From positions 1 through 21,787 of the forward strand of contig JBFLYA010000048.1 in the NCBI GenBank assembly GCA_040757115.1: DNA of 21,787 nucleotides. Reading direction: 5' to 3'. Numbering within the stretch: the stretch's first letter is position 1; each line of letters begins with the position of its first letter. The notes beneath the pieces were generated by a model that worked only from the letters and a program-made list of their open reading frames with translations, was not told where the DNA came from and searched no databases. This stretch comes from a bacterium. Lineage in GTDB: Bacteria; UBA9089; CG2-30-40-21; SBAY01. Shown one piece after another: positions 4,643-21,303 of the stretch. The translations under genes were made by a program, and so were the position numbers.

Positions 4643-4671
4643 TTGACATTTATCTTCCTATCATGTATAAT
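4643..4671 (+). promoter_or_regulatory. Consensus sigma-70 promoter of the glycan operon
   Basis: TTGACA at 4643-4648 and TATAAT at 4666-4671 are separated by 17 bases, an exact match to the housekeeping consensus. Transcription would begin near 4678 and leave a leader of about 150 nt before the epimerase gene at 4831. Confidence 0.8.
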
Positions 4672-4830: not shown

Positions 4831-5820
4831 ATGAGGAATATATTAATTACCGGAGGAGCAGGTTATGTAGGAGCTGTTTTGGTCCCTAAACTGCTTGAGA
4901 AAGGGTATGGAGTAAAGGTTATTGACCTGTATATCTATGGGGAAGATGTCTTAGATAGCGTCAAAGACCATCCAAACCTTGTTCAGATAAAAGGGGATAT
5001 TAGAGAGAGAGGGCTTCTTGAAAGAGAGATTGTAGGCTACAGCGACATAATCCACCTTGCCTGTATATCTAATGATCCAAGCTATGAGCTGAATCCCGAG
5101 CTTGGCAAATCAATAAATTATGATGCCTTTGTCCAATTGGTAGATGTAGCAAAGGGAAATAGGGTAAAGCGGTTTATCTATGCTTCAAGCTCCAGTGTAT
5201 ATGGGATCAAGGAGGAACAAGAAGTAACAGAGGACCTTCCCCTGGAACCTTTGACGGATTATTCCAAATACAAAGCTAAATGCGAGGAGGTTTTATTAAA
5301 GGCTGCTGCTGCTGATTTTGTAGTAACGGTTATCAGACCTTCGACCGTATGTGGTTACTCACCTCGAATGAGGCTCGACCTTACAGTTAATATCTTAACC
5401 AACTACGCTATTAACAAAGGAGAGATTACTGTTTTTGGGGGAGAGCAGATGCGTCCCAACATCCACATTGAAGATATGGTAGACCTTTATGTCTATCTAT
5501 TGGAACTGCCTGCTGAAAAAATAGACAAAAAAATCTACAATGCCGGATATGAAAACTACAAGGTTAAAGATATTGCAGAAATGGTCAGGGAGGTGATTGG
5601 GAAACAGGTGATAATTAAGACTATCCCAAGTGATGATATGAGGTCATATCATGTCTCTTCAAAAAGAATCAAGGAAGAAATATGCTTTGTTCCTAAACAT
5701 ACAGTTAAAGAAGCAATCCTTGATTTAAAGAGGGCTTTTGAAGAGGGTAAGATTCCGAATTCTATGACAGATATACGGTATTACAATATTAAAGCCATGC
5801 AGGCATTGAATCTTAAATGA
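4831..5820 (+). CDS. NAD-dependent epimerase/dehydratase (extended SDR)
   Basis: This is a 329-residue extended short-chain dehydrogenase of the nucleotide-sugar epimerase/dehydratase type, acting in the cytoplasm. The Rossmann motif GGAGYVG lies at 8-14 and the acidic cofactor-binding residue D32 follows at the end of the second strand. The SSSSVYG segment (119-125) and the catalytic Y144-SKY-K148 are intact. It opens the glycan operon after an approximately 150-nt leader; aaagga about 12 bases upstream supports the ATG. Substrate cannot be read from sequence. With two aminotransferases behind it, it likely makes or modifies a keto-sugar intermediate. Its end overlaps the next gene by four bases. 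Confidence 0.88.
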   Translation: MRNILITGGAGYVGAVLVPKLLEKGYGVKVIDLYIYGEDVLDSVKDHPNLVQIKGDIRERGLLEREIVGYSDIIHLACISNDPSYELNPELGKSINYDAFVQLVDVAKGNRVKRFIYASSSSVYGIKEEQEVTEDLPLEPLTDYSKYKAKCEEVLLKAAAADFVVTVIRPSTVCGYSPRMRLDLTVNILTNYAINKGEITVFGGEQMRPNIHIEDMVDLYVYLLELPAEKIDKKIYNAGYENYKVKDIAEMVREVIGKQVIIKTIPSDDMRSYHVSSKRIKEEICFVPKHTVKEAILDLKRAFEEGKIPNSMTDIRYYNIKAMQALNLK

Positions 5821-6941
5821 AGACAGATGTAAAAGTGCCCTATGTAAATATTGTTGCTCAACATAAGCCAATTAAAGACGAGCTCTTAAGCGCTATAGAT
5901 AAAGTAATTAATCATGGCCAGTTTATCTTTGGCGATGAAGTTGTTGAGTTTGAACAGCGGTTTGCTGAGTTGTGTGATGTGCAGTACGCCATAGGTGTTA
6001 ATTCTGGCACCGATGCACTTATTTTAGCCCTCAGGGCTTTGGGGATAGGACAAGGCGATGAAGTAATCACTCCTCCAAACTCTTTTGTTAGCACTTCCAG
6101 TTGTATCGCACTTCTTGGCGCACGACCTATTTTTGTAGATGTAGGAGATGATTACAACATAGACCCCGCTTTAATCAAGGAAGCTATCACACCCTGTACG
6201 CGGGCTATAATCCCGGTACATCTCACTGGTCGGCCGGCAGATATGGATGCAATTAGGAAAGTGGCGGCAAAACATAACCTGTATGTGATTGAAGACTGTG
6301 CCCAGGCAATAACAGCAGAGTATAAAGGCCGACGGGTTGGTTCAATGGGTAGCGTGGGGTGTTTTAGTCTTCACCCATTAAAAACTTTGAATGCTTGTGG
6401 CGACGGTGGTATGTTAACCACCAACGACAAAAAGCTATATGAAAAACTCAAAATTATGCGCAATCTTGGCCTGAAAAATCGCAATGAGTGTGTAATATGG
6501 AGTGGGAACTCTCGATTAGATACCTTGCAAGCAGCTATTCTACTGGTTAAGCTGAAGTATCTGGATGAATGGACAGAAAAGCGGCGGGCCAATGCCGCTT
6601 TTTACCAACAAAGACTGAATAGTATTCCCCAGATGCGAATACCAATAGATAAAATATATGAGAAGGCAGTTTATCACACCTTTGTTATTCAATGTGAGCG
6701 TCGTAATGAGCTGCAGGAATATTTAGCCGTGCAAGGAATAGAAACGGCCATTCATTATCCGATTCCTATCCATCTCCAAAAAGCAGCTTCAGAACTTGGT
6801 TATCAGGAAGGCAGTTTTCCGGTAGCCGAAGAGCAAGCAAAGAGAATTCTTAGTTTGCCGATTTATCCAGAACTCACGAGCAATGAGCTGGAATATATTG
6901 TAAAATGTTTATCTAATTTTTATCAAAGGAAGGGGAAATAA
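5817..6941 (+). CDS. DegT/DnrJ/EryC1/StrS aminotransferase, first of a tandem pair
   Basis: This 374-residue PLP enzyme belongs to the sugar aminotransferase family, which moves an amino group from glutamate onto a keto sugar, usually nucleotide-linked. The phosphate-binding NSGTDAL lies at 62-68, D160 and Q163 (EDCAQ) contact the cofactor, and K189 in SLHPLKTL is the Schiff-base lysine. The C-terminal substrate-loop sequence ([12 protein letters not shown]) is typical of the family. All catalytic residues are present. The start ATG overlaps the SDR stop (ATGA), and its TAA shares a base with the start of a second, clearly related aminotransferase. Confidence 0.92.
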
Positions 6942-8047
6942 TGCAAGTACCGTTTTCTTACCTTGACCGTCAATTTGCCGATATTGATCTATATCTTAAT
7001 GATGTTAGGGAGCTGGTAAAAAGTGGTGATTTTACATTGGGCAGACAGCTTCTTGAATTTGAGAAGCGTTTTGGGGAAATAACAGGTATCCCTCATGCCA
7101 TAGGGGTAGCCAGTGGTACGGATGCACTCATTCTTTCTTTAAAAGTTCTTGGTGTTGGGCCGGGGGACGAGGTTATTACTACTCCAATGACTTTTATCGC
7201 CACAGTAGGTGCAATCGTAATGGCAGGAGCCAAGCCTGTATTTGTGGATAGTGAAGATGGGTTTGTCATTGACCCGGCAAAGATTGAGGCAGCAATTACA
7301 CTCCAAACTAAAGCAATTCTTCCGGTACACTATACTGGAAATGTACCAGATATGCCTGCGATTGCCGAAATTGCCAGGCGACATAATCTAATAGTAGTAG
7401 AGGATGCTTGTCAGGCTATTTTAGCAGAGTTGGATGAAAAACCGGTGGGTTCATGGGGTCAGACAGCCGCTTTTAGCTTACATCCCCTTAAGAACCTGAA
7501 TGTCTGGGGCGATGGTGGAATGATCGTTACCCGCTCGGCAGACCTGGCGGAAAAACTGCGATTGCTTCGTAATCACGGACTTACCAATAGAGATGAAGTC
7601 GCTATTTTTGGAGGCAATTCCCGCCTGGATACATTACAGGCAGTCATCGGTAACAGACTGATTAAGGAGGTAGAATTTATTACCGAACAACGTATTACTA
7701 ATGCCAAACGGTATGATGAGTCCTTTTCGCAAATGAGTGAGTTCATCCATATTCCCAAACGACGGCCTGGGGTGAAACATGTTTTCCACCTTTATATGAT
7801 ATGCGCCAAATACCGCGACGAACTGCTGACCTATCTGTGCGAAAATGGGGTTGAAGCTAAGATTCATTATCCCATTCCCGTACATTTACAGAAAGCAGCT
7901 CGATATTTAGGGTACAAAGAGGGTGATTTCCCAGTGTGTGAAGAAGATTGCCGGAATATTATTACCTTACCTGCCCATCAACACTTAACAGAATTGGAAA
8001 TAGATTATACCATCGATATGGTTCATAGGTTTTATAAAAGGAAGTAA
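6941..8047 (+). CDS. DegT/DnrJ/EryC1/StrS aminotransferase, second of a tandem pair
   Basis: A second sugar aminotransferase of 368 residues, homologous to its upstream neighbour along the whole length. It has SGTDAL near 59-64, EDACQ with D155 and Q158, the PLP lysine K184 in SLHPLKNL, and the same [14 protein letters not shown]-terminal loop. Both copies keep every expected active-site residue, so this is not an obvious decaying duplicate. Either the two act on different positions of one sugar, or they form a heteromeric enzyme. The start is coupled to the previous stop (TAATG), and the transketolase gene begins two bases after its stop. Confidence 0.92.
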
Positions 8048-8049
8048 TC

Positions 8050-8865
8050 ATGCTGGAAAATAAAGGGATTTTTTTAAGAGAGAAGGCTGACTATATTAGA
8101 AAGGACATTGTAAGGATTTGCGTGCCGAACGGTGCAGGGCATATTGCACCGTCACTGTCATGTGTGGATATATTGGTGGCTTTATATTACGGGGCACTCT
8201 CTTATGACGATAATAACCCGTTCTGGGATGAGCGAGATAGATTGGTTTTTTCAAAAGCTCATGGGTGTTATGCCCTTTATTCTATTTTGGCGGATAAAGG
8301 TATAATTCCTGGGGAAGAATGGGAAAACTTTTATAAAGAAGGAAGAAGTAGTTTGTCCGGATGTGTTGAGAGAGAAATAAAATATGGGCTTGAAGCAGGC
8401 TGTGGTTCCCTTGGTCATGGATTGCCTATAGCTACAGGCATAGCCTTTGGCGCAAAATTACAGACCAAAATTTATCATACATTTTGTCTAGTTGGGGACG
8501 GTGAATTGCAAGAAGGAACTACCTGGGAAGCATTACAGTTTGCCGTAAAGCATGAATTAGGTAATTTAATAATCGTGGTTGATCGTAATCACCTTCAGGC
8601 CATGGACTTTATTGTTAACATACTTGACAGAACTGATGAAGATATTATTAAAAGATTAAAAGGGTTTGGAGTGGATATTGAGATTTGTCTAGGGCACGAT
8701 GTGGTCAGGCTTTTTCATCTTTTTCAAGAATTAAAATCAAAAGTTAGTAATGTTCCAAAGGTGGTTATTGCTGAGACAATTAAAGGGTTTGGTTTGAAAT
8801 GGATGGAGAATGTACCCAGATTTCATTTCTGTGTTCCTACTGAGGAAGAACTGAAGGAAGGATAG
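8050..8865 (+). CDS. Transketolase, N-terminal (TPP pyrophosphate-binding) subunit
   Basis: This 271-residue protein is the PP-domain half of a split transketolase. It shows GAGHIAPSLS (28-37, containing the conserved His31), SKAHG (68-72), GSLGHGLP (119-126), and the ThDP-binding GDG at 149-151 with Asn at the end of the motif (N172 or N180). Transketolases move two-carbon ketol units between sugar phosphates and can make sedoheptulose 7-phosphate, the entry metabolite of bacterial heptose synthesis. Placed inside a sugar-activation operon, it is likely a dedicated enzyme and not the central-metabolism copy. Its stop overlaps the start region of the partner subunit. Confidence 0.88.
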   Translation: MLENKGIFLREKADYIRKDIVRICVPNGAGHIAPSLSCVDILVALYYGALSYDDNNPFWDERDRLVFSKAHGCYALYSILADKGIIPGEEWENFYKEGRSSLSGCVEREIKYGLEAGCGSLGHGLPIATGIAFGAKLQTKIYHTFCLVGDGELQEGTTWEALQFAVKHELGNLIIVVDRNHLQAMDFIVNILDRTDEDIIKRLKGFGVDIEICLGHDVVRLFHLFQELKSKVSNVPKVVIAETIKGFGLKWMENVPRFHFCVPTEEELKEG

Positions 8866-8867
8866 TG

Positions 8868-9350
8868 ATGGTCAATTACCGCAAAGATATTATAAATGCT
8901 GCTATCCCCTATTTCCATGAGGATGAACGATATTATCTTCTGGTGGAAGATATGGGGTTTGGGGCAATTGATTTACTCAAGAAAGAATTTCCTTCAAGGG
9001 TAATAAATTGTGGTATAATGGAACAGAGTACGGTTGGTATTGCTGCGGGGATGAGTATGTCCGGTTTAATACCTATTGTATATTCAATAGTAAACTTTTT
9101 AGTTTTTAGAGCACTTGAGCAAATCAGGAACGATGTTATCCTGCAAAATCTTAATGTAAAATTTGTCGGTACTGGATGCAATAATTATTTTAAATTTCTC
9201 GGGCCTTCACATTGTTGTGGAAGTGATGATATTACCTTAATGGACTTAATTGGCCTGAAGGTATATGATCCTTATGCTGAAACAAAATCTTTTTCTGAGG
9301 TTGTTGAGGAATGGATATGTAGTACCAGCCCGGGATATATACGGGTTTGA
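8868..9350 (+). CDS. Transketolase, pyrimidine-binding subunit lacking the C-terminal domain
   Basis: This 160-residue protein is the Pyr-domain partner. CGIMEQSTVGIAAGM carries the catalytic Glu (E52) that activates thiamine diphosphate, and the protein ends at the GYIRV strand that closes this domain. Split transketolase second subunits are usually about 300 residues because a C-terminal transketolase_C domain follows; here it is absent, and the next gene begins at once, so there is no degraded remnant. I chose the ATG at 8868, with aaggaagga just upstream; a GTG at 8865 is possible. The enzyme could still be active, because the active site is formed by the PP and Pyr domains. Confidence 0.82.
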   Translation: MVNYRKDIINAAIPYFHEDERYYLLVEDMGFGAIDLLKKEFPSRVINCGIMEQSTVGIAAGMSMSGLIPIVYSIVNFLVFRALEQIRNDVILQNLNVKFVGTGCNNYFKFLGPSHCCGSDDITLMDLIGLKVYDPYAETKSFSEVVEEWICSTSPGYIRV

Positions 9351-9373
9351 AAAAAATAAAGGGGATGCGAAGA

Positions 9374-10906
9374 ATGAAAGATAAGAAGATCCCTTCAAAG
9401 ATCTTAGATCTTAAGACGATAGCCGGACTCTGTGCTAAGGCTAAAAAAGAAGGCAAAAAGGTCGTTTACTGCCATGGGTGTTTTGATCTGATGCACATTG
9501 GGCACATTAAATATCTCCAGGCAGCCAGGAAGAGAGGTGATGTTTTAGTGGTGACCATCACCCCAGATCGTTATGTAACCAGGGGTCCTGGCCGCCCGGT
9601 TTTTACCGAAATTCACCGTTTGGAGTCGATTGCTGCTCTTGACTGTGTTGATTATGTGGCTCTTAATCAATGGCCTACCGCAGTGGAGTCAATTCATCTC
9701 CTCAAACCGAATTTTTATATCAAAGGTAGCGATTTTGGTTCGGTAGAAGGTGACCCAACCGGTCGCCTGGTTAAGGAAGAAGAAGCCGTTAAATCTATTA
9801 ATGGGGAATTAGTTTTCACCAATGAAGAGGTATTCTCTTCAAGCAAGCTTCTCAAAGATTATTTTGGTGTCCTGCCTAAGGAGTTGGAGAAATTTTTGGT
9901 GGGTTTTACTCAGAGGTTTAACACTAATGATATCATTGGGGTCTTTGATAGCATAAAGGATTTGCGTGTTCTGGTGATAGGAGAACCTATCATAGATGAA
10001 TACAATTTCTGTAGTCTCCTCCAACGGGCATCCAAAGCCCCAACGGTGGCCACAAGATGGGCTTCTTCGGAAACATACGCGGGCGGGTCACTGGCTGTGG
10101 CTAATCATCTGGCAGGACTTGTCAAGGAGGTGGGGCTTATCGGACTACTTGGCAGGAAAGACTCACGGGAGGAATTCATTCGGGCGAATCTGCAACCAAA
10201 TATTCAGTTTTTTCCATGCTTTCGTGATGATAGCTCAACAATAATAAAAACCCGCTTCCTTGAAGAGGCATTTAAACAGAAAATGTTTGAGGTATGCTAT
10301 TTTAATGATTATCCTATCAATGGTAAAACAGAAGAGGAGACCATCAGTCTACTAAAAAAACTACTTACTAACTACGATCTTGTAATCTCGGCAGACTTTG
10401 GCCATGGTTTTATAACCAGAGAAATCATTAATCTGCTGTGTAAAGAAGCTCCCTATCTGGTAGTCATGGCCCAGTCGAACAGTGCCAATCTTGGATTTAA
10501 CCCGGTGACCAAATATCATCGGGCAGACTATATTGTGGTAGATCATGTGGAGATAAGATTGGCCTGTCATGAGCAGCATTCTGATCTTGAGCCGCTGGTA
10601 AGGAATATATCCAAACGACTTAAATGTCCCCGGATTAATGTAACCCTTGGTCATGAGGGAACTCTTTATTACCATAGTAATACTTTTTATCGGGTACCGG
10701 TTGCCTCCTGGAAAGTGGTTGATACCATTGGTGCTGGGGATGCGGTTCTGGCAGTGACATCCCCTTTAACTTACTTAAATCTGGATGCGCAGGTAGTAGC
10801 ATTTATTGGTAATTGTGCCGGCGCATTGGCTGTTCAGTACCTTGGGAATAAGGAGAGGATTAACCCGGCTCATCTGAGAAAGTTGATTGAGACATTGATG
10901 AAATAG
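9374..10906 (+). CDS. Bifunctional nucleotidyltransferase-sugar kinase (HldE/RfaE-like, reversed domain order)
   Basis: This 510-residue fusion has an N-terminal cytidylyltransferase-like domain (about 28-165) with HGCFDLMHIGH (HIGH at 41-44). The C-terminal PfkB-family kinase begins near residue 198 (VLVIGEPIIDE) and has DTIGAGD at 450-456 with the catalytic base D456. In E. coli HldE the order is kinase then nucleotidyltransferase, so this is the reverse arrangement. By family it should phosphorylate a heptose 7-phosphate and attach a nucleotide to a heptose 1-phosphate. I chose the ATG at 9374 because aaagggg lies nine bases upstream; TTG 9347 and ATG 9365 are weaker. A GmhB phosphatase, needed between the two steps, is not visible here. 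Confidence 0.87.
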   Translation: MKDKKIPSKILDLKTIAGLCAKAKKEGKKVVYCHGCFDLMHIGHIKYLQAARKRGDVLVVTITPDRYVTRGPGRPVFTEIHRLESIAALDCVDYVALNQWPTAVESIHLLKPNFYIKGSDFGSVEGDPTGRLVKEEEAVKSINGELVFTNEEVFSSSKLLKDYFGVLPKELEKFLVGFTQRFNTNDIIGVFDSIKDLRVLVIGEPIIDEYNFCSLLQRASKAPTVATRWASSETYAGGSLAVANHLAGLVKEVGLIGLLGRKDSREEFIRANLQPNIQFFPCFRDDSSTIIKTRFLEEAFKQKMFEVCYFNDYPINGKTEEETISLLKKLLTNYDLVISADFGHGFITREIINLLCKEAPYLVVMAQSNSANLGFNPVTKYHRADYIVVDHVEIRLACHEQHSDLEPLVRNISKRLKCPRINVTLGHEGTLYYHSNTFYRVPVASWKVVDTIGAGDAVLAVTSPLTYLNLDAQVVAFIGNCAGALAVQYLGNKERINPAHLRKLIETLMK

Positions 10907-10922
10907 AAGGAAGCAGGAAGCT

Positions 10923-11480
10923 ATGAGACCATGGCTGAAAAACTATATTGAAGACCATATAAAGATAATTCAAGCGCTTGACCAAGAAAGAACGGCCAAT
11001 CTCATTGAACTGGTTAAGGAAACCCGTGATTTGGAGAGGCAAATTTTTGTAATAGGTAACGGTGGAAGTGCCGCCTGTAGTTCCCATCTGGCAGTTGACT
11101 TAGGAAAGGGTGCTTCTCTAAATAAGAAGAGGCGTTTCAGGATCTTTTCACCGGTTGACCATATCCCCTGGTTAACGGCTTTAGGCAATGATCTGAGTTA
11201 TGATGATATATTCTCGGAGCAAATTGAGAATTTTGCTCAGGAAGGAGACCTACTTCTGGCAATTAGCGTCAGTGGTAGCTCTCCAAATCTTGTCAAAGCA
11301 GTTGAGCGGGCAAAGCACCTTAAACTTAAAACAGCAGCTTTAGTGGGGGATAAGAATGGGAAGCTAATCAATATGGTAGATCTGGTGATTGTCATTCCGT
11401 CTAAACACTATGGCCATGTTGAAGATATACAAACTGCTATCTGCCACATGATCAGTTATTATTTTATAGAGAGAGAATAA
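10923..11480 (+). CDS. GmhA-like SIS-domain phosphosugar isomerase
   Basis: This 185-residue protein is a SIS-domain isomerase of the sedoheptulose 7-phosphate isomerase type, which forms D-glycero-D-manno-heptose 7-phosphate. GNGGSAACSSH (45-55) and SVSGSSPN (115-122) bind the sugar phosphate. Compared from memory with E. coli GmhA, H55 and H175 match its zinc ligands H61 and H180, but the catalytic Glu65 position is Asp59 and the Gln172 position is Glu167. This fits a variant subfamily that could accept another phosphosugar. It lies 16 bases after the kinase/nucleotidyltransferase gene and overlaps the next start by one base, which supports a joint pathway. Confidence 0.84.
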   Translation: MRPWLKNYIEDHIKIIQALDQERTANLIELVKETRDLERQIFVIGNGGSAACSSHLAVDLGKGASLNKKRRFRIFSPVDHIPWLTALGNDLSYDDIFSEQIENFAQEGDLLLAISVSGSSPNLVKAVERAKHLKLKTAALVGDKNGKLINMVDLVIVIPSKHYGHVEDIQTAICHMISYYFIERE

Positions 11481-12466
11481 TGAAGGGACTTGATAAGTTT
11501 GATCGGTCATCTTTACATATTTTGCCTATTTCGGAACGCCAATCCGACTTAAGTATTAAAGATTTCTCTAATAAGGTCGAAATACCATATCACCATTCTG
11601 ATTTGAATATATTAGCTGGTAAAATAGTTAAAGCCTATGAGGATAAGAGACAAACCATCCTTATGATGGGAGCTCATGTAATTCGTTCAGGGGTATCAAG
11701 ATATATAATTGAGCTTATGGATAAAGGGGTGATAACTCATATTGCCATGAATGGGGCCGGTCCTATTCATGAATATGAGTTAGTGAGGTTTGGCTGGACA
11801 ACAGAATCTGTCGCTTATTATATAAAAAAAGGGCAGTTTGGACTGTGGAAAGAGATAGGAGAGCTAAATGAGGTAATTAATACGGCTTATAAAAAGGGGA
11901 TTGGTTTTGGAGAGGCAGTAGGGAGATTTCTTGAGGAAAGCAACTGGCCACATAAAGATATAAGTATTTTAGCCGCAGGATACAGACTTAAGATTCCTGT
12001 AACAGTTCATGTAGGTATAGGATATGATATATTGCATGAGCATCCCAACTGTGATGGGGCAGCCATTGGAGCTACTTCATACAAAGATTTTTTGAGATTT
12101 GCCATGAGTGTTCAAGAGCTTGAAAAAGGGGTGGTTATGTGTTTTGGCACCGCAGTCATGGGTCCAGAGGTGTTCCTCAAGGCCCTTTCTATGGCCAGAA
12201 ATATTGCTCATCAAAGAGGAGAAAAGATATCCTCCTTTACAACCGCAGTATTTGATCTGATAGATATAGAGGGGGACTATCATAAGGAACCCTCTAACTC
12301 CAGTCCAATGTATTACTATAGACCATGGAAGTCACTCCTTGTTCGGACTGTTTCAGAGGAAGGACAAAGCTTCTATTTTAAAGGAGACCACAGGGCAACC
12401 ATCCCTGCCCTATATCACTTAATTATGGAAGGAATTGCTCCTCAAAAGGAGAAAACTTATGAATGA
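11480..12466 (+). CDS. Conserved protein resembling deoxyhypusine synthase-type NAD-binding fold
   Basis: No firm function can be given. The 328-residue protein looks cytoplasmic, with alternating strands and helices and glycine-rich turns: MMGAHVIRSGVS (62-73), AMNGAGPIHE (89-98), HVGIGYDILHEHP, and DGAAIGATS. A late YYYRPWKSLLVRT segment looks family-specific. The pattern of ordered glycine turns recalls deoxyhypusine synthase-like proteins, but I do not see the catalytic lysine motif of true deoxyhypusine synthase, and its place next to GmhA- and HldE-like genes argues for a sugar role. It starts at the last base of the isomerase gene and overlaps the glycosyltransferase by eight bases, so it is firmly in the operon. 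Confidence 0.55.
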   Translation: MKGLDKFDRSSLHILPISERQSDLSIKDFSNKVEIPYHHSDLNILAGKIVKAYEDKRQTILMMGAHVIRSGVSRYIIELMDKGVITHIAMNGAGPIHEYELVRFGWTTESVAYYIKKGQFGLWKEIGELNEVINTAYKKGIGFGEAVGRFLEESNWPHKDISILAAGYRLKIPVTVHVGIGYDILHEHPNCDGAAIGATSYKDFLRFAMSVQELEKGVVMCFGTAVMGPEVFLKALSMARNIAHQRGEKISSFTTAVFDLIDIEGDYHKEPSNSSPMYYYRPWKSLLVRTVSEEGQSFYFKGDHRATIPALYHLIMEGIAPQKEKTYE

Positions 12467-13274
12467 AGATGACAATAAAAGACTGGTTGTTTCTGTTATC
12501 ATGCCAGCCCTTAATGAAGAGAAGAATATTCTGGCGGCGATTAATAACATACTAAAAGCTCTGGAAGATTTTAATATTAATGGTGAAGTTATTGCTGTTA
12601 ATGACGGGAGTACCGATGCTACAGAAGAGATGGTGCGCGATATTATGAATAAAGATAATCGGGTCAGGATGTTGAGGCATGAAAAACCTCAAGGCATAGG
12701 GACATCATTCTGGGACGGGGTGGATAATGCTAAGGGAGATATAGTTATTATGCTTCCTGGGGACAATGAGAACGACCCCTGGGAGATTTTGCGTTATTAC
12801 GAGCTGCTTGACCATGTAGATATGATTATCCCCTTTATTTTCAATAAAGAAGCGAGGTCATTATTTCGAAATGTGCTCTCTTTTATTTATCGTTTTATTA
12901 TTAATACCACCTTTCTTGTCTATTTTAATTACACCAATGGCACGGTTCTTTATCGAAAATCCATTCTAAAAGAACTGGAGTATAGAAGTCACAGTTTCTT
13001 CTTTCAAACCGATATTTTAATAAGGTTAGTAAAGAGGGGGTATCTTTTTGCTGAAGTTCCCTACAGGCTTGGTTTAAGAAAAGAAGGAGTATCCAAAGCC
13101 ATTACCTTTCCTTCTTTATTACAGGTTACAAAGGGCTATTTTCAGCTCCTGAACGATATTTATTTTAAGAAGAAGAATAAGGCTTGTTTTTCGGATGATT
13201 CTCAAACAGCACTCAGGCGACAAAAAGCAGATGAGTTAGGGTTCTGCAAAATAGGATTTGGGGGAGACAACTGA
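12459..13274 (+). CDS. Family 2 glycosyltransferase
   Basis: A GT-A fold glycosyltransferase of 271 residues. The N terminus has VIMPALNEEKNI and then VNDGSTD, the nucleotide-binding motif with Asn replacing the first Asp; PGDNEND stands where DXD-type metal binding is expected. The FNYTNGTVLYRK segment is typical of the polyprenyl-phosphate glycosyltransferase-like subgroup, but there is no C-terminal membrane domain. I chose the ATG at 12459, with aaggag (12446-12451) seven bases upstream; the TTG at 12435 lies within the previous gene. As last gene of the operon it probably transfers the sugar made by the upstream enzymes. Confidence 0.85.
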   Translation: MNEDDNKRLVVSVIMPALNEEKNILAAINNILKALEDFNINGEVIAVNDGSTDATEEMVRDIMNKDNRVRMLRHEKPQGIGTSFWDGVDNAKGDIVIMLPGDNENDPWEILRYYELLDHVDMIIPFIFNKEARSLFRNVLSFIYRFIINTTFLVYFNYTNGTVLYRKSILKELEYRSHSFFFQTDILIRLVKRGYLFAEVPYRLGLRKEGVSKAITFPSLLQVTKGYFQLLNDIYFKKKNKACFSDDSQTALRRQKADELGFCKIGFGGDN

Positions 13275-13295: not shown

Positions 13296-13642
13296 ATAAA
13301 AAATCAAATATCAAATAGCAAAATGCAAAATTACAAATCAAATTTCAAAAAGGACTGTAACTATTCAGCCACTGATTGACACGGATTAGCACGGATAAAT
13401 ACAGAGGTTAGAAGATAGAGGTCAGAGGACAGAGGAGAAAGGGAGAAACGGAGAAGGAGAGGAGACACGAGGCACTATACCTGAATTTGCCTTCAACCTT
13501 GAGCCTAATTACGGACACGGATACCGGACACAGATTCACGAATTTTCCGTGTTTCATCCGTGTTTATCTGTGGCTGAACAGTTCAGATAATTTTACATTT
13601 TGATATGTAATTTTTATATTTGCTTTTTGCATTTTGATCTTT
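13296..13642. repeat. caaaatgcaaaa-type palindrome split by another element
   Basis: The left arm (about 13296-13350) is a run of caaat/caaaatgcaaaa units. The right arm (about 13589-13642) carries the same units inverted (ttttgcattttgatc, ttttacattttgatat). Aligning the left arm with the reverse complement of the right arm gives clear agreement over about 50 bases. The loop is occupied by the element at 13356-13583, so that element either inserted into, or evolved within, the older palindrome. Confidence 0.6.
13356..13583 (+). repeat. Interspersed repeat with terminal inverted repeats, copy 2
   Basis: Same element and orientation as 3864-4103, 228 bp here. Both begin tgtaactattcag, share the purine-rich centre including gagaaggagaggagacacga, and end ggctgaacagtt. 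Differences are scattered substitutions and a shorter centre. Ends: cacggattagcacggataaa on the left and the inverse of cacggatgaaacacgga on the right. No reading frame of note. Confidence 0.8.
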
Positions 13643-13743
13643 GGAGGAAATTGATAAAAATAGAGGTTTTAAATACCCGCTTAAAAATTACAGTTTCCTA
13701 ATTTTGCAGAACTCTAAGCAGATGAGTAATAAAGGACTTTTTG

Positions 13744-14847
13744 ATGAGTGAACTAATCCTTGATGGCCACAAATTGGCTTGGCATAAAGAAAGAGTGAAT
13801 GCCTGGTTAAAAGGAGAAAGGATTGCACCTATCACTATTGATTGTGCTTTGACCAGACGATGCACTTATAGATGTGTCTATTGTTACGGTCAACTCCAGG
13901 CTAACGATGAAAAAAGGATGACACAGGATGTAATATTTAGATTCTTAGATGATGCGGCTGAGATTGGTGTAAAAGCCATAAGTTTTGTCAGTGATGGAGA
14001 AAGCACCTGCTCTCCCTATTTAACCCAGGCAATTATAAGGGGTAAAAAAAATGGTCTGGATATGGCCCTGGGAACAAATGGCTATTTATTAAAGGATGAA
14101 AAATTAGAGGAAATTCTGCCCTGTTTGACTTATCTTAGATTCAATATTTCTGCAGCCAGCCCTTCCCGCTACGCTCAAATAATGGGCTGCAAAGAAAAAT
14201 GTTTCCATAAAGTATACCATACTATAAAAGAGTGTATCAGAATAAAAAAAGAAAAAAACCTCCATGTAACTATAGGATTACAAATGGTCTTGCTACCTCA
14301 ATTTTCCGACCAGGTTATTCCCTTTGCCAACATTGGTAAAGAATTAGGAGTTGATTACTCAGTTATTAAGCATTGCAGTGATGATGAGGAGGGAAGTTTA
14401 GGGGTGGATTACGATAAATACCTTAATTTGGTTGATATTCTAAAGCAGGCAGAAAGCTGCTCAACTGAAGGATACTTAGTCAAGGCAAAATGGTCTAAGA
14501 TTTTAAGTAAAGGAAAGCGTAAATATTCCCAATGTTATGGTCCACCGTTTATTACCCAGTTTTCCGGTTCTGGGCTGGTTGCCCCTTGTGGGATGTTGTT
14601 TAACAGGAAGTATAAAAGATTTCATATCGGTAATATTGCCAATACATCTTTTAAAGAAATCTGGCAAAGCGAGCGTTATTGGGAGGTCATGAATCTTATT
14701 GCTTCAAGTAAGTTTGATGCCAAAACGATGTGCGGTACTTTATGTCTTCAGCATAAGGTAAATGAGTTTCTCTGGGATTTAAAACAAGGAAAGACTTCCC
14801 TTAAAGAAGGAATGGGTGAGACTCCAATGCATATAAATTTCATTTAA
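13744..14847 (+). CDS. Radical SAM/SPASM protein
   Basis: This 367-residue enzyme should bind a [4Fe-4S] cluster through C40-C44-C47 (CTYRCVYC) and cleave S-adenosylmethionine to start radical chemistry. The C-terminal third carries further cysteines (CYGPPF, CGML, CGTLC) in a SPASM-like arrangement that normally holds auxiliary clusters. The ATG at 13744 is preceded at seven bases by aaagga; a TTG at 13741 is less likely. The substrate is unknown: SPASM enzymes modify peptides, enzymes, sugars or lipids. It heads a five-gene operon with a TIM-barrel isomerase, two membrane proteins and a membrane glycosyltransferase, which favours a glycan or lipid-linked substrate. Confidence 0.85.
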   Translation: MSELILDGHKLAWHKERVNAWLKGERIAPITIDCALTRRCTYRCVYCYGQLQANDEKRMTQDVIFRFLDDAAEIGVKAISFVSDGESTCSPYLTQAIIRGKKNGLDMALGTNGYLLKDEKLEEILPCLTYLRFNISAASPSRYAQIMGCKEKCFHKVYHTIKECIRIKKEKNLHVTIGLQMVLLPQFSDQVIPFANIGKELGVDYSVIKHCSDDEEGSLGVDYDKYLNLVDILKQAESCSTEGYLVKAKWSKILSKGKRKYSQCYGPPFITQFSGSGLVAPCGMLFNRKYKRFHIGNIANTSFKEIWQSERYWEVMNLIASSKFDAKTMCGTLCLQHKVNEFLWDLKQGKTSLKEGMGETPMHINFI

Positions 14848-14854
14848 TTCTACT

Positions 14855-15556
14855 ATGTCTATTATTATAGCCGCTAAGTGCGCACCTCAAAAAGAAATAC
14901 TCTATAATATTGAGAGAGCAGGTCTGAAAGCAGTAGAGTTATATCTATCAGAAGAGATACTGAATGATTTGGATAAAACTATACAACTATGCAGAAATTT
15001 TTCTTTCATATATGCTTTTCATGCACCAACAGAGGGATGCAAACTGGATAAGCTGGCAGAATTGGTCAAGGCTATTGGTGGGAAGATAGTTGTGTTTCAT
15101 AACATCTATTGGGAAGAGGAGTGGAAGAAGATAGTAAGAACTTTTAGAGATGTTGAGGCTAATCTGTGCATGGAGAATACCTATAGTGTGCATGAGCCGG
15201 TAAAATTTATGCAAAGATATGGGGTGGGTAGATGCTTGGACCTGGAGCATTTACAGATGGAATGTGCGGGGGTCTACGAGGAAGTGTTTATTCCTGTTAT
15301 AAAACAGGCTTCTCATATCCATTTAACCGGTTATACTTATGGCTCACAACTATGGCATACTCATATCCATTATTCACAGGAGCATAATTTGTATATGTTG
15401 GATTTGTTGAAGAAAGCAGGTTATTCGGGTCTTCTTGTCTCTGAAGCCAGAGAATCACTTCAGACTTATGAAGAGTTTAAGAAATTAAATAATTTTTTTA
15501 AAATATGGGAATCTCGTGACAAACATGAAGTTGGGAATTGGGATTCCCGATTCTAA
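14855..15556 (+). CDS. Xylose isomerase-like TIM-barrel protein (sugar phosphate isomerase/epimerase family)
   Basis: This 233-residue protein has the succession of short strands with acidic and histidine residues typical of the AP-endonuclease-2/xylose-isomerase barrel: VELYLSEE, FHAP, VFHN, CMENTYS, CLDLEHL, HIHLTGY, and a final VSEAR. The Glu of MENT, the Asp/His of LDLEH, the HIH and the last Glu would make the divalent metal site. Family members isomerise or epimerise sugars, but some are endonucleases or dehydratases. It is short for the family, which usually has 250-300 residues. It starts seven bases after the radical SAM stop without a clear ribosome site, so translation is probably coupled. 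Confidence 0.75.
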   Translation: MSIIIAAKCAPQKEILYNIERAGLKAVELYLSEEILNDLDKTIQLCRNFSFIYAFHAPTEGCKLDKLAELVKAIGGKIVVFHNIYWEEEWKKIVRTFRDVEANLCMENTYSVHEPVKFMQRYGVGRCLDLEHLQMECAGVYEEVFIPVIKQASHIHLTGYTYGSQLWHTHIHYSQEHNLYMLDLLKKAGYSGLLVSEARESLQTYEEFKKLNNFFKIWESRDKHEVGNWDSRF

Positions 15557-15577: not shown

Positions 15578-16087
15578 ATGAAGGTATTATTTTGGGGTTC
15601 AACTATTTTTTGTCTGGCTTTCTTTTTACATCTAATCGTCTGGAAGATACATTTACCCAAAAGACAAACAAAAGCTTTATTGGAAATATTTTTTGGTACT
15701 TTAATTATAAGTATTCTTACTTTATGGAATAGTGCATCATTTGGAATATTTGTTGTGGAAAGTTTTTTAGAATATTTTCATATTTGCCTGTTTTTTATTT
15801 CTTTCACACTAGCTTATATAATTACTTATTCAGGGATAGAGGCGGATAGTCCTTCGCTGGTAATAATAAGAAAAGTTGCCGAGGCTGGTTCAGAGGGGTT
15901 AGATCAAAAAGAGTTTGATCGAATGATGAGAGACGACCTTTTGATAAAACCAAGAATAAAAGACCTTCTTAGTGATAAAATGGTCTATATGGAAGGGGAT
16001 AAGTATAAATTGAGGTCAAAAGGTGCTTTGATGGCACGCATATTTATTTTCTATCGCCAGCTGTTAAATGCTCCCAAAGGTGGTTAA
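15578..16087 (+). CDS. Small membrane protein with C-terminal winged-helix-like domain (type A)
   Basis: The 169-residue protein has hydrophobic segments at about 1-22, 33-50 and 55-86, then a soluble tail (about 95-169). In the tail, GSEGLDQKEFDRMM, RIKDLLSDKMVYMEG and DKYKLRSKG look like a small winged-helix domain ending in a basic helix. Conserved blocks WKIHLPKRQ (22-30) and IEADSPSL (87-94) recur exactly in a paralogue on the minus strand at 18663-19179. No characterised family is recognised. It could be a membrane-tethered regulator or a scaffold for glycan enzymes. A gaaaagg ribosome site lies upstream, and the next gene starts six bases after its stop. Confidence 0.72.
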   Translation: MKVLFWGSTIFCLAFFLHLIVWKIHLPKRQTKALLEIFFGTLIISILTLWNSASFGIFVVESFLEYFHICLFFISFTLAYIITYSGIEADSPSLVIIRKVAEAGSEGLDQKEFDRMMRDDLLIKPRIKDLLSDKMVYMEGDKYKLRSKGALMARIFIFYRQLLNAPKGG

Positions 16088-16093
16088 TCGCAT

Positions 16094-16621
16094 ATGTCTT
16101 ACCATGCTATGCAAGTTCTGGATCCGGTTATCGGGTTGATGGTAAATGTTCTGGTCCAGATACTTGGCAGTCGTTTTGTTCCTGGATTGGGGATGTTAAA
16201 ATCTGTTGTTTTAGGGTTCATCACCGGGGGGCTCAGTGTAATCCTGACTGAATTATATTTGTTGGTGGGCAGTGGAATGCCCATAGGTGATGCCCTGGGC
16301 AACATGGTCACTAACCTGATAATTTATGCTTGCCTGGGATATTGTTATTTTCATTTTATAAACCTGGGGGAAACAGCCCGCAGGATTAGAATATTAAGAG
16401 AATTGTACGATTCTAAAGAAGGTCTTTCTATGGATGAGATTCTAAAACGATATAATGCCAGAGATATAGTTAAGATAAGAATTAACAGGCTGGTTAATAA
16501 TGGTCAGATAATATTCAAAAATAACAGATATTACATTGGCAAGCCAATTATGTTGTTAATGGCAAAGATTATAATCAGAATGAAGTTAATGGTTCTTGGT
16601 AAAGAAAGTGAGTTTGATTGA
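16094..16621 (+). CDS. Small membrane protein with C-terminal winged-helix-like domain (type B)
   Basis: The 175-residue protein has hydrophobic segments at about 8-24, 33-58 and 68-90, followed by a soluble part (97-175). That part, RILRELYDSKEGLSMDEIL then IKIRINRLVNNGQI-like helix and NNRYYIGKP wing, resembles a winged helix followed by a hydrophobic/basic helix. The overall plan matches the neighbouring type A protein although the sequences differ, so they may be distant relatives or partners. aaaggtgg at the end of the previous gene is the likely ribosome site. Function unknown; membership in a glycosyltransferase operon is the only clue. Confidence 0.7.
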   Translation: MSYHAMQVLDPVIGLMVNVLVQILGSRFVPGLGMLKSVVLGFITGGLSVILTELYLLVGSGMPIGDALGNMVTNLIIYACLGYCYFHFINLGETARRIRILRELYDSKEGLSMDEILKRYNARDIVKIRINRLVNNGQIIFKNNRYYIGKPIMLLMAKIIIRMKLMVLGKESEFD

Positions 16622-16651
16622 TTTTAACTTACATTAACCAGGAGGCAAAGA

Positions 16652-18352
16652 ATGATATTAGGAAATAAATTCATGAGAAAGGTTATAGAATACAAATTTC
16701 TAATTTTTATTCTTATTATAGGAAGTTTTTTACTTTTTTTTAATTTAGGCACTAATAGGTATCTTAATGGGGATTCAGCAAATGAGGGATTATTGGCAAA
16801 AAGTATATGTTCCTGTGGACTCCCAAATCATTGGGATGGAAAGAATATATTCGCTGATGCATATGGTAATGAGTTTAAACGAGTGGGAAATTATTATATT
16901 TTGTCTCACCATCCTTGGTTACATTTATATGTAATTGCTGCTTCATATCTACTTTTGGGGAGAACTGCATTTTCAACACTTTTCCCCGGGGCATTGGTTG
17001 CACTTTTTACTATATTTTTATCTTACTTTTTTGCTATTAAAATATCAAGGGATAAAGAGATTGCTATCATAACAACTCTATTATTACTCTTATCTGTTCA
17101 ATTCTTGCTATTTGGAAGAGGGGATAGGTATTATGCGTTAATAGCACTTTTTACACTTTTAATGTTATATTTTTATTTAAAGTTTTTAGAAGATAAAAAA
17201 GGAAGTATGATTGGATTTGGAATTTCTGCTATATTGTTCTTTCACAGTAATTATGTACCTTTCATAGCAGTAATGGGGGGAATAATGACACATTTCTTTT
17301 TATTTGAATTTAAGAAAGAAAGATTAAAATCAATTTTACTTTCATTACTTACTATATCCCTTTTTACTACCCCATGGATTTTATTTTTTCATCCTTCTTC
17401 AAGTGTAATACAAAGTTGGAGTAGTCTTGGGGCATATAATTCAATAAAAGAGTTTTTATTTGTATTTACACATACTTTATTAAAAATAAATAATCATCTC
17501 TTTCCTTTCCTATTATTTGTATTAGTTCCCTTTATTATGATAAAAAGAACGGGGCATAAATTAGTTGTTAATAATCGATATATTCTTATATTGTTAGTAA
17601 TATGTTTCATATTATTAACTTTTTTATTACATGATGTAGGACGTAGTTTTAATAGCATGATTCCTTTATTTTGTTTATTATCTGCAAGTATTTATAAATT
17701 TATTAAAGGGAAAAATAGAATAATTGCATATGTATTCTTAATCCTATTATTATTTACAAATATTATAAATGTTACACCTACTATATTATTCAAGAGTTGT
17801 ATTTCTACAAACAACTTTGCCAATATTATATCCTTTATCATTCATGGAGATAAAGAAAAAGTGTTAGAAAAATTAAAAGAAAGGGATGCAGAAAAGAAGA
17901 TTGAAGAATATGCAAAGATAAAATTCCTAATTTGTGATTTTCTATATGAAATTACTCATGATTATGATAACGCTATAGAGGGCATAATTAAATACTTGCA
18001 AAAATATGGGAAGAAAGATGAGACTGTAATGATTCGGTGTGTAGAAGGATTAGCAAGTAATATCATATTTTATACAGGGATGAAGGTTATCTATAAAGTT
18101 AGTGATAACGAGGTTCTTTTCCCACCTACAGAGGATTTCTTAAAACTAAATCAAATGCCTCCTCGGGGAATAGATTGGTATATAAAAATACCATCTGAAC
18201 CTCTAGACTATATGCCTGAAGGTAAATATGAGAAAATAATTATTGATTATCCAGAGACAGTGTTTGATAATTATCCATTCTTACCAAGTCATCAATTTAA
18301 AACATTAAATGATGGACCCAAAGTAGTTATTTATCACAAGATGAACGACTAA
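16652..18352 (+). CDS. GT-C membrane glycosyltransferase (ArnT/PMT, GT39-like)
   Basis: A 566-residue multi-pass membrane protein. After the first helix (about 13-31) the first outer loop has NGDSANEG with D41 and E45, where GT-C enzymes place their catalytic acidic pair; the HHPWLHLY segment follows. About ten hydrophobic segments extend to roughly residue 380, and the last 160 residues are soluble. Such enzymes move a sugar from a polyprenyl-phosphate donor to an acceptor on the outer face of the membrane. The ATG at 16652 has an aggagg site six bases upstream. The gene is visibly more AT-rich than the 5-11 kb genes. It is the last gene of the operon. Confidence 0.83.
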   Translation: MILGNKFMRKVIEYKFLIFILIIGSFLLFFNLGTNRYLNGDSANEGLLAKSICSCGLPNHWDGKNIFADAYGNEFKRVGNYYILSHHPWLHLYVIAASYLLLGRTAFSTLFPGALVALFTIFLSYFFAIKISRDKEIAIITTLLLLLSVQFLLFGRGDRYYALIALFTLLMLYFYLKFLEDKKGSMIGFGISAILFFHSNYVPFIAVMGGIMTHFFLFEFKKERLKSILLSLLTISLFTTPWILFFHPSSSVIQSWSSLGAYNSIKEFLFVFTHTLLKINNHLFPFLLFVLVPFIMIKRTGHKLVVNNRYILILLVICFILLTFLLHDVGRSFNSMIPLFCLLSASIYKFIKGKNRIIAYVFLILLLFTNIINVTPTILFKSCISTNNFANIISFIIHGDKEKVLEKLKERDAEKKIEEYAKIKFLICDFLYEITHDYDNAIEGIIKYLQKYGKKDETVMIRCVEGLASNIIFYTGMKVIYKVSDNEVLFPPTEDFLKLNQMPPRGIDWYIKIPSEPLDYMPEGKYEKIIIDYPETVFDNYPFLPSHQFKTLNDGPKVVIYHKMND

Positions 18353-18662: not shown

Positions 18663-19179
18663 TTAGCCACCTTTTTTGTCTCTTCTTAAAAGCCTTCTAT
18701 ATTTGATAAATATCTTGGAAATTAAAATGCCTTTTGGGGTAAGTCTATATCTCGTTTTGTCTTTATATGCCAGACCGCTATTGATAAGATCTTTTATTCT
18801 GGGTATTACCAAAATTTCATCATTCATCTTCTGCTCAAATAGACCTTTATCAAGCCCTTTGGGCTCTGTTTCGGCAATACTCATTATCATCACAAGCGAA
18901 GGACTGTCTGCTTCAATTGCAGGGTAGGTAACTATATAGGCAAAGGCTAAGGAAATATACATAAAAGAAAGTTGAATATATTCATAAAATCTAGCAGGGG
19001 GCCCCTATGCCAAACAGCAAGATAAACGCTTTAAATAAATATATACCTACAATAAGATTAATAAAAAATATTAACAATAAAGTTTCAGCTTGCCTTTTTG
19101 GCAGATGTATTTTCCAAATAAAAAAATGTATCATAAAGGCACACATAAATAGTAATATCCCATAAAATAACACACTCAT
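18663..19179 (-). pseudogene. Frameshifted paralogue of the type A membrane/winged-helix protein
   Basis: Read on the minus strand, the first part (start 19179, MSVLFYG..., WKIHLPKRQ) and the second part (ending 18663, IEADSPSL..., YRLTPKG) together match the whole plus-strand protein at 15578-16087. The reading frame breaks at the run of five G at 18997-19001 on the plus strand. Dropping one base there joins the halves as GAPARFYEYIQL, and the combined protein would be about 172 residues. The start overlaps the stop of the radical SAM gene (ATGA). It may be a true pseudogene, a phase-variable gene or a base-calling error. Confidence 0.8.
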
Positions 19180-20279
19180 CTTTTGACTGCCTGTCTGGTT
19201 TTCATCACAAATAAGCGAAACCATTCGCGGATAATCATAGGATAAAACTTTGGGCTATATAATAGATTCAGGGCTGTTACATTCTCCCATGTACAATAGC
19301 ATTTTTTGTTTTGGCTTATATTTTCTATTACTGTTCTGTTTCTTTGGGAAAACAAAATTTGCTTTATATCGTAATTGGCCTGCCTTAGATTTCCTAATTT
19401 ATGCCCTAAGATTTCGCAGGGATAAACATCGCCATTCTCATAGATAACTAATAATTTTCTTCCTGCTTGACAAGGAACGGTTTGTTTCTTATCTACATAA
19501 TTATCTACCACTATCTTATTAACAACCATCTCAAGCGCTTCTTTAAGGGCTAAAGAAGAAAATGGGCTGATATTGTTATCTACTTGATATTTAAAATTTC
19601 TGTAAAAATCGCGGTATCTTATATAATCGATGACCTTCTCTTCTTTATCTTTAACATCGCCGCGTATAAAGGCCAAGGAAGGTTTAACACTACCTATATT
19701 GTTTTGTATAAATCTTATAGTATCCGCAAATGAATCAATTGTTGAATGGCTGAAGATGGTGCTTGTTATTAAATTCAGATTTTTAAATTTGTCTTTCAGT
19801 TTCTTTAATCCATCTATAGTCTCAAGGATTTTATCAAAACCGCCTTTTACGCCTCGAAAACGGTCATGTCCATCCTTTATACCGTCTATAGAAATACAGA
19901 CAATTACGCCTAAATCTTTAAATTTGTCTAAAACATTCCCAACTGTATCAACAACTTTTTTAGTCAGAAAGGCGTTAGTATGAAAAGAGATATACTGAAT
20001 CCTGTTATTCTTATAAAATACAGAGACAATCTCTGCTAAATCATCTCTTAAAAACGGCTCTCCGCCACTAATTACTAAAACTTTTATATGTCCAAAATTT
20101 TTTGAAATCTTTTCGATTTCATCAAGGCTCAGTTCTTCTTTTAAGCTAGCTTCTTGCTGTCTTTGATAATTAAAACAGTGGGGGCACGATGCGTTGCATT
20201 TTGAAGTAGGATAAAATATCACATAGAACGGCAATCTATTAAATAAAAATTTAAATTCTTTTAAAAAAGTAGGCGCCAT
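19176..20279 (-). CDS. Radical SAM/SPASM protein
   Basis: This 367-residue protein binds a radical SAM [4Fe-4S] cluster through C28-C32-C35 (CNASCPHC) and has the SGGEP motif for S-adenosylmethionine binding. The C-terminal part contains cysteines in a SPASM-like setting (CQAG, CEILG, CYCTWE). A short hydrophobic start (about 9-23) and the final IREWFRLFVM helix could hold it to the membrane. It begins seven bases after the glycosyltransferase stop and is coupled to the broken membrane gene that follows, so the three form one operon. It is only distantly related to the radical SAM gene at 13744. The substrate is unknown, probably linked to surface glycan. Confidence 0.85.
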   Translation of the reverse strand: MAPTFLKEFKFLFNRLPFYVIFYPTSKCNASCPHCFNYQRQQEASLKEELSLDEIEKISKNFGHIKVLVISGGEPFLRDDLAEIVSVFYKNNRIQYISFHTNAFLTKKVVDTVGNVLDKFKDLGVIVCISIDGIKDGHDRFRGVKGGFDKILETIDGLKKLKDKFKNLNLITSTIFSHSTIDSFADTIRFIQNNIGSVKPSLAFIRGDVKDKEEKVIDYIRYRDFYRNFKYQVDNNISPFSSLALKEALEMVVNKIVVDNYVDKKQTVPCQAGRKLLVIYENGDVYPCEILGHKLGNLRQANYDIKQILFSQRNRTVIENISQNKKCYCTWENVTALNLLYSPKFYPMIIREWFRLFVMKTRQAVKR

Positions 20280-20286
20280 ATTTTTC

Positions 20287-21303
20287 TTATACCCTGTAAT
20301 CCTTCTGCCTCAAAACAAAATATATATATATTGCCTTAAGTATCCCCAATAACCTGGGCAGCATAATAGTAAAATCGGCAACTGCCCTTTTCATCGCAAA
20401 AAAGATACCTTTTTCTTTCAATAGGAAAAATAGAAATTTATAGATATTAATTATATATATAAGCAGAAGTATTATGAATAGAATTAAGGCAAGCCTTGCC
20501 TTAAAAAATAGCAAAAAGAAATTTATACCCATCAACGATATTATTATTATGCTGAGTTTGTCCTGTAAGGGGACAGAATTGCTGTGTAACTTCATAAAAT
20601 CCTTGTTTTTAGCCTGAAACGAAAGGATAGAAAAATTGATTGTTCTTCTGTATATCTTCTTTAATGCTGGCAATATATTCCCAAATCCGTGTTCAACAAA
20701 TATATCTGGATAATAAAATATCTTATATCTAGCCAGAAGGCGTATTCCGAGTTCGTGTTCCTCTCCGCCAGAAAACTTATATCCTTCATTAAATCCTTTA
20801 AAATAATTAAATACTTCTTTTCTAATCCCAAGGCAGCCTGTCTCAAGGTTTGCCGCCTCAATGCGTCTTTTGTCCTTAAACAAACCCGCAAAATTATACG
20901 TATACTTTAATAAAAAAAATTCCGAAGAAAATGTTGAAATTGGTGACTTTCTATCCCACCTGCCCTGAATAATATAGGCGTCCGTATCTTCTTCAAAATG
21001 TCTCAGAAATTTTTCTAAAGTATCTTTTTTTAGAATTACATCAGCGTCAAAAAAGAAAATAATATCTCCTTTTGCCTCTTTGATTCCAAAATTCCTTGCT
21101 GCAGCAACACCGGATTTTTCTATTCTAAGATATCTGCACGCAAACTCTTGCACAACCCCAGCAGTATTATCTGTGCTGCCGTCATCCACAATTATAACTT
21201 CAAAAGGAACTTTTATGTTGCTTGAAAAAATGGAATCAAGGCAACGGCCTATAGTTTTTTCTCCATTATAAACAGGGATTACAATAGATATCTTAGATAG
21301 CAT
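20287..21303 (-). CDS. Family 2 glycosyltransferase with C-terminal membrane helices
   Basis: This 338-residue GT-A enzyme has IVIPVYNGEKTI at the N terminus, VDDGSTD for nucleotide binding, FFDADV as the DXD metal motif, and a GGEEHELG block that matches the catalytic-base region of family 2 enzymes. Two hydrophobic segments at about 248-290 and a final hydrophobic stretch anchor it at the inner membrane. It uses nucleotide sugars to extend a surface glycan or lipid-linked sugar; the specific sugar cannot be read. It is the first gene of the minus-strand operon, about 85 bases from the predicted transcript start. Confidence 0.9.
   Translation of the reverse strand: MLSKISIVIPVYNGEKTIGRCLDSIFSSNIKVPFEVIIVDDGSTDNTAGVVQEFACRYLRIEKSGVAAARNFGIKEAKGDIIFFFDADVILKKDTLEKFLRHFEEDTDAYIIQGRWDRKSPISTFSSEFFLLKYTYNFAGLFKDKRRIEAANLETGCLGIRKEVFNYFKGFNEGYKFSGGEEHELGIRLLARYKIFYYPDIFVEHGFGNILPALKKIYRRTINFSILSFQAKNKDFMKLHSNSVPLQDKLSIIIISLMGINFFLLFFKARLALILFIILLLIYIINIYKFLFFLLKEKGIFFAMKRAVADFTIMLPRLLGILKAIYIYFVLRQKDYRV

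Follow-up and report, generated by a model that had tools for sequence, protein, structure and literature searches.

Among the closest described relatives of the system considered here is the ADP-heptose pathway GmhA-HldE-GmhB-HldD, known from Escherichia coli and Vibrio (PMC10948575). The system itself is a nine-gene operon at positions 4831-13274 (+ strand) of a bacterial contig (JBFLYA010000048.1, assembly GCA_040757115.1), of which the whole stretch analysed, 21,787 nucleotides, is called the window below. The operon likewise contains a SIS isomerase, a PfkB kinase and a nucleotidyltransferase, and a GmhB-like HAD phosphatase is encoded in the same genome, but the fusion of the last two enzymes is reversed in order, the parts score under the equivalog cut-offs, a GSU2086-family protein stands in place of HldD, and a short-chain dehydrogenase/reductase (SDR), two aminotransferases (AT1 and AT2), a transketolase and a radical SAM protein (rSAM) are added.

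Higher-carbon sugars that are activated and aminated occur in antibiotics. For the GDP-octose of lincomycin, a sugar phosphate built by a transaldolase is isomerised, activated, oxidised and aminated; compared with the window, the sugar is an octose and the kinase and nucleotidyltransferase families differ. The heptose of septacidin and spicamycin, made by a Streptomyces antibiotic cluster that is likened here to the window by pathway description, is also aminated at a later stage. In the account of Tang et al. 2018 cited in PMC10948575, this heptose is made from sedoheptulose 7-phosphate (S7P) via ADP-heptose. Modification of GDP-heptose in Campylobacter jejuni (Cj1423-1430; PMC10680097) begins with oxidation of the nucleotide heptose at C4 by the SDR Cj1427. 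The later enzymes there are C3/C5 epimerases and C4 reductases, not aminotransferases, and kinase and GDP nucleotidyltransferase are separate. Geobacter sulfurreducens shares with the window the grouping of hldE, a GSU2086 gene and gmhA (GSU2085-GSU2086-GSU2087), with no SDR, aminotransferase, transketolase or rSAM known there.

A literature search found no paper describing the enzyme set of the window, nor one on amino-heptose biosynthesis. The initial annotation, which had called the pathway undescribed, was half right, because the chemistry of GDP-4-keto-heptose and the septacidin heptose were already known. Its observation was correct and its interpretation is partly supported, the set being a variant of known heptose chemistry. 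We regard it as an even call that the product of the operon is an activated amino-heptose destined for a surface glycan and made through a duplicated and specialised branch of the heptose route.

The operon and its heptose-type enzymes

All nine open reading frames (ORFs) were confirmed on the + strand, with neighbours overlapping or at most 16 bp apart. Together with matches to Pfam and NCBIfam, which assign the SDR, two DegT aminotransferases, a split transketolase, a nucleotidyltransferase-PfkB fusion (NT-KIN), a SIS/GmhA-like protein and a GT2 glycosyltransferase, they bear out the gene content first proposed, namely these enzymes and a protein resembling deoxyhypusine synthase (DHS). As had been stated, the operon lacks both the 4,6-dehydratase and the sugar-1-phosphate nucleotidyltransferase that mark the common routes, the SDR scoring far below those models.

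NT-KIN (9347..10906, +; Pfam and NCBIfam) carries its nucleotidyltransferase at residues 29-169 and its kinase at 201-512, the reverse of the HldE order. Canonical GmhA and HldE were judged by the cut-offs of TIGR00441, TIGR02198 and TIGR02199, of which the three heptose-type parts reach about one third to three fifths: 98.9 bits against 209 (TIGR00441) for the GmhA-like protein (10923..11480, +), 112.7 against 345 for the kinase and 104 against 181.5 for the nucleotidyltransferase, whose closest relative is ethanolamine-phosphate cytidylyltransferase. Domain order and scores led us to reject a normal HldE.

The genome (99.9% complete) encodes counterparts on other contigs: a canonical GmhA of 215 bits (C11), a canonical HldE with kinase and nucleotidyltransferase at 393 and 198 bits (C72), another GSU2086 protein, of subfamily I (C27), and a GmhB-like HAD phosphatase, sought at the suggestion of the initial annotation and found at 175.5 bits (C108), just below one cut-off of 178. 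The GmhA/HldE/GSU2086 trio of the window is therefore a divergent second set, as expected for a heptose route, which it supports. The GmhA-like group of related operons retains the catalytic His along with metal-type ligands, while, with few exceptions, Glu is replaced by Asp, Gln by Glu, and the TGR arginine is lost (H..D..E..H in the window for the H..E..Q..H of GmhA); canonical copies retain the Glu, the Gln and the TGR Arg. The group reads as having an intact isomerase site of probably altered specificity.

The SDR (4831..5820, +; PF01370), proposed as a nucleotide-heptose 4-dehydrogenase, has as best PDB sequence match 6vo6 (E 2e-43; next best 1e-24), which we take to be Cj1427, the GDP-heptose 4-dehydrogenase, an enzyme type marked by a ping-pong oxidation of C4 that uses alpha-ketoglutarate. 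The active site of the window's SDR has the pattern SSSSVYG / YSKYK and not the TDE of 4,6-dehydratases. AT1 (5817..6941, +; PF01041, 404 bits) and AT2 (6941..8047, +; PF01041, 352 bits) are 47% identical and both have the pyridoxal phosphate lysine of HPLK, within SLHPLKTLN and SLHPLKNLN, respectively. The closest solved relatives of AT1 are 7b0d (glutamine:scyllo-inositol transaminase), QdtB (3frk) and 2oga, a group rich in 3-amino-sugar enzymes.

The GSU2086 family and HldD

The DHS-like protein (11480..12466, +) belongs to the GSU2086 family (NCBIfam NF052581, GSU2086_dom; 383 bits against a curated cut-off of 250), for which no reported enzyme activity was found in the literature. A Pfam scan gave no match, the DS domain included (a real DHS scores 279), and a PDB sequence search returned no relatives. 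Its AlphaFold model (pLDDT 88.5, pTM 0.89) matches AgrE/ArgZ (LOR/SDH domain) and DHS structures, NAD complexes among them, with Z scores of 17-19 over 207-245 residues (DHS 17-18, AgrE 18.9); characterised members of both groups use NAD. Fold and NAD-type scaffold are thus shared with DHS and with the C-terminal domain of AgrE/ArgZ, whereas identity is 10-16% and the gene neighbours differ. When profiles were compared, single sequences of DHS and of LOR/SDH gave weak matches (57 and 70% probability). The invariant K284 may correspond to the DHS catalytic lysine in an alignment made by eye, on which no claim is rested.

The family tree splits into two subfamilies (support 100/100). The window copy and its operon relatives fall in subfamily II, outside subfamily I, the group that excludes HldD. 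Among 281 genomes, subfamily I (in these counts, GSU2086 copies outside known NT-kinase clusters, not assigned copy by copy in the tree) occurs in 95 and HldD (TIGR02197 above cut-off) in 82, never both; in the 150 genomes for which a canonical HldE kinase is listed, the figures are 73 and 57, again without overlap, and 20 have neither. Fisher p values of ~1e-19 to 1e-24 are inflated by the relatedness of the genomes; most of those sampled are from different families, and one family (f19) and the phylum of the window each show both states. This mutual exclusion is the strongest general result of the analysis and outweighs the finding in the window.

Gene linkage points the same way: a canonical heptose gene lies within about 1.5 kb in 16 of 36 subfamily I loci examined, and 16 GSU2086 copies in a wider sample are at most 4 kb from a canonical kinase. 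In Geobacter, where GSU2086 sits between hldE and gmhA, mutant phenotypes are alike, transposon sequencing of G. sulfurreducens on electrodes giving -3.1 for GSU2085 (hldE), -3.2 for GSU2086 and -3.7 for GSU2087 (gmhA) (PMC5585712). Read most simply, these data make subfamily I a functional stand-in for HldD that works through a transient oxidation with NAD; subfamily II would perform a like reaction on another heptose. The counts suggest that in roughly one sampled genome in three the family takes the place of HldD. More tentatively, at less than even odds, we propose the family as an unrecognised NAD-dependent heptose epimerase of the DHS fold that is unrelated to HldD and replaces it, its subfamily II copy in the window serving a new route whose product would be a nucleotide-heptose with two amino groups and possibly a branched carbon chain. 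Literature searches found nothing linking DHS with heptose, nor anything on the lack of HldD in Geobacter. That the family replaces GmhB instead was considered and dropped because GmhB-like and DHS-like genes co-reside in the same gene runs (L064, L083 and L116; loci are given by our own numbers).

Two further settings of the family were observed. A conserved set of HAD, GSU2086 subfamily II and HldA-like PfkB kinase genes occurs in Acidobacteria (L030:9167-13336 and similar loci), where it continues with a ROK kinase and a GmhA-like gene, and in Chloroflexota (L016 and others). The subfamily I copy of the genome under study (L111:9771-13635, on contig C27) is upstream of ORFs that resemble aroQ, pepP and efp by eye. 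Elongation factor P (EF-P) is a bacterial relative of eIF5A; the vicinity to efp is probably due to chance, because many other copies adjoin heptose genes.

Related operons, proposed pathway and its rivals

About 17 of 290 genomes, spread over many families, encode NT-KIN at full length, and the fusion was the anchor for comparing 24 loci. The gene set recurs in other genomes, where the initial annotation had suggested looking for it: close orthologues (L120/L005 and L161) keep the SDR, both aminotransferases, both transketolase subunits, the fusion and the rSAM, L120 with GmhA-like and DHS-like genes in addition and L161 ending at a contig edge. The aminotransferases are missing from L006/L114, where SDR, transketolase, NT-KIN, GmhA-like and DHS-like genes are followed by a NeuB-like gene. 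L064, on a contig labelled archaeal, has TalC (346 bits against a cut-off of 246) and GmhB (202 against 178) with DHS-like, nucleotidyltransferase, NT-KIN, GmhA-like, rSAM, B12-type radical SAM, transketolase (both subunits) and methyltransferase genes. The fusion, itself the anchor, is therefore the constant part, the pair of thiamine diphosphate (ThDP) proteins exchangeable and the aminotransferases optional. On the counter-sign named beforehand, operons that match otherwise but have lost their heptose genes, the picture is mixed: operons with aminotransferases keep the fusion, but L164, with aminotransferase, transketolase and rSAM, has neither the GmhA-like nor the DHS-like gene.

The rSAM gene (13741..14847, +; PF04055 and PF13186), which encodes a radical SAM/SPASM protein and proposed tailoring enzyme, is counted with the set because in the orthologous loci L120/L005 and L161 its homologues (674-702 bits) are part of the operon; a PDB sequence search with the protein gave no relatives. 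Beside the long-form transketolase of relatives that lack aminotransferases, a second radical SAM type is found (L006:5759-6829, L064:16165-17235, L163 and L166), accompanied by a methyltransferase in three of the four, which suggests a different tailoring branch.

The transketolase is split into a ThDP-binding subunit (TKN; 8050..8865, +; PF00456, 95 bits; 6yak, E 5e-44) and a short pyrimidine-domain subunit (TKC; 8865..9350, +; PF02779, 59 bits; 6yaj, E 6e-13), both hits being to the split transketolase of Carboxydothermus, the nearest relative of the pair. Both ThDP domains are present, with the catalytic Glu in GIMEQ, and TKC keeps the His of GPSH and a final Arg in YIR, which we take to be the sugar-phosphate binders of transketolases. 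TKC (161 aa) consists of the pyrimidine domain and lacks the C-terminal one; a frameshift was dismissed as the cause because L120, L161, L164 and L174 share its length class.

From the gene content, the paralogy to GmhA, HldE and GSU2086 of the same genome, the folds, the conservation and the exclusion of HldD, we infer a pathway in which every substrate, product and step order is conjectural. The GmhA-like enzyme would isomerise a ketose phosphate, probably S7P, and the kinase half of NT-KIN would phosphorylate the product at C1; after dephosphorylation by the GmhB-like HAD encoded elsewhere in the genome, the nucleotidyltransferase half would activate the sugar. The GSU2086 protein would then use bound NAD for a transient oxidation that inverts a carbon bearing a hydroxyl group, which would be C6 if HldD is a guide; the Cj1427-like SDR would oxidise C4, the two DegT enzymes would aminate C4 and one more keto carbon, perhaps C3, rSAM would tailor the sugar and the GT2 enzyme transfer it. 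The transketolase would either supply the heptulose phosphate or act on the ketosugar.

Several points weigh against this pathway and the epimerase role. A single SDR faces two aminotransferases, so that a second amination would have no obvious oxidation step; the operon itself has no GmhB; the E-to-D and Q-to-E changes and the loss of the TGR arginine point to a changed isomerase substrate; and isomerase, kinase and nucleotidyltransferase are too divergent in sequence for substrates to be assigned. The exclusion of HldD is a correlation that to some degree follows clades, and it fails for window-type copies, since four genomes with such a copy also carry HldD; subfamily II is also present in Acidobacteria and Chloroflexota beside HAD and PfkB genes. 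The claim of a heptose-type precursor has the support of the paralogous trio, of TalC and GmhB in L064 and of an SDR near 6vo6; its making from S7P is weakened by the divergence of the enzymes and their changed active sites.

Most serious among the alternatives, though unlikely, is that the split transketolase, in place of supplying S7P, transfers a two-carbon glycolyl unit onto the ketone that the SDR creates, the heptose-type genes making the starting nucleoside diphosphate sugar, to give a branched or longer sugar. Acyl-branching of 4-ketosugars by ThDP enzymes is known from yersiniose A and avilamycin. A pair like pyruvate dehydrogenase E1 (PDH-E1) alpha and beta lies near the SDR and NT-KIN core in L083, L170 and L173, and L123 and L165 have E1-alpha-like genes beside NT-KIN; E1 enzymes use 2-oxo acids and cannot make S7P, and such pairs fit a two-carbon addition to a ketosugar. 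A methyltransferase directly follows TKN-TKC in L006, L064, L122 and L163, as a tailoring gene might, and the genome has further transketolase genes. Against this, both ThDP pairs occur together in L170 and L173, TalC in L064 fits S7P supply, TKC retains its presumed sugar-phosphate residues, and the aminotransferases of the window need a ketone too. Of the dedicated transketolase said to feed S7P, the pair itself is real, but it may act downstream because PDH-E1-like pairs replace it in related operons; for the window, S7P supply is kept slightly ahead of two-carbon addition.

Somewhat more improbable is that the GmhA-like protein and NT-KIN use another sugar phosphate (pentulose, hexulose or octulose phosphate) and that an activated non-heptose amino sugar results. 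The low equivalog scores, the active-site changes throughout the GmhA-like group, the cytidylyltransferase-like half of NT-KIN, the breadth of the kinase family and the comparable logic of lincomycin's aminated octose speak for it; the co-occurring paralogue of GSU2086, a family tied to heptose genes, the Cj1427-like SDR and the GmhB above cut-off in L064 speak against it. That the operon is a second ordinary ADP-L,D-heptose set for the lipopolysaccharide core, with the aminotransferases serving another sugar, accounts for the trio and is very improbable, given the canonical copies elsewhere and the constant company of SDR, aminotransferases, transketolase and rSAM with NT-KIN in L120 and L161. 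Modification of a protein or polyamine by the DHS-like protein in the manner of DHS is hardly credible, the fold (Z about 17) and a putative EF-P-like ORF about 3 kb from the genome's own subfamily I copy being opposed by the lack of a Pfam DS match, by heptose-gene linkage in many genomes and by the similar phenotypes of GSU2085-2087 mutants.

Flanking features and significance of the family

The operon is preceded, 160 bp upstream, by a perfect sigma-70-type consensus (TTGACA-17-TATAAT, 12/12; 4643..4671, +; a consensus match only) of a kind found in none of 100 shuffled sequences. It ends with the GT2 glycosyltransferase (12435..13274, +; PF00535, 86 bits), whose true start may be an ATG a few codons inside the ORF. 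A 10/12 promoter-like site at 13592-13620, upstream of rSAM, may be due to chance, the region having 29 such sites against 28.5 expected. Starting 8 bp past rSAM, a xylose-isomerase-like TIM barrel protein (14855..15556, +; PF01261, 25.5 bits, under the cut-off of 31.1) is a possible member of the set. Tightly packed downstream of these two genes, at 15578-18352, are two small putative membrane proteins without a Pfam family, followed by a membrane protein resembling PMT_2 glycosyltransferases. The first of the small proteins has a shorter relative at 18663-18962 (- strand), and a second radical SAM/SPASM protein plus a GT2 enzyme are encoded at 19176-21303 (- strand). Upstream, at 1545-2387, an MNT-type nucleotidyltransferase is fused to a HepT-like domain (Polbeta 70 bits, HepT-like 55 bits), flanked by rnfC-like and rnfD-like ORFs and overlapping the latter.

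Amino-heptoses are rare. If the proposal for the GSU2086 family is true, it would explain how many heptose makers without HldD finish ADP-heptose, namely with a DHS-fold protein; it would correct the annotation of a family now named merely by locus tag in around one hundred genomes of the sample; and it would add sugar epimerisation to the chemistry of a fold whose known reactions are on polyamines and amino acids.

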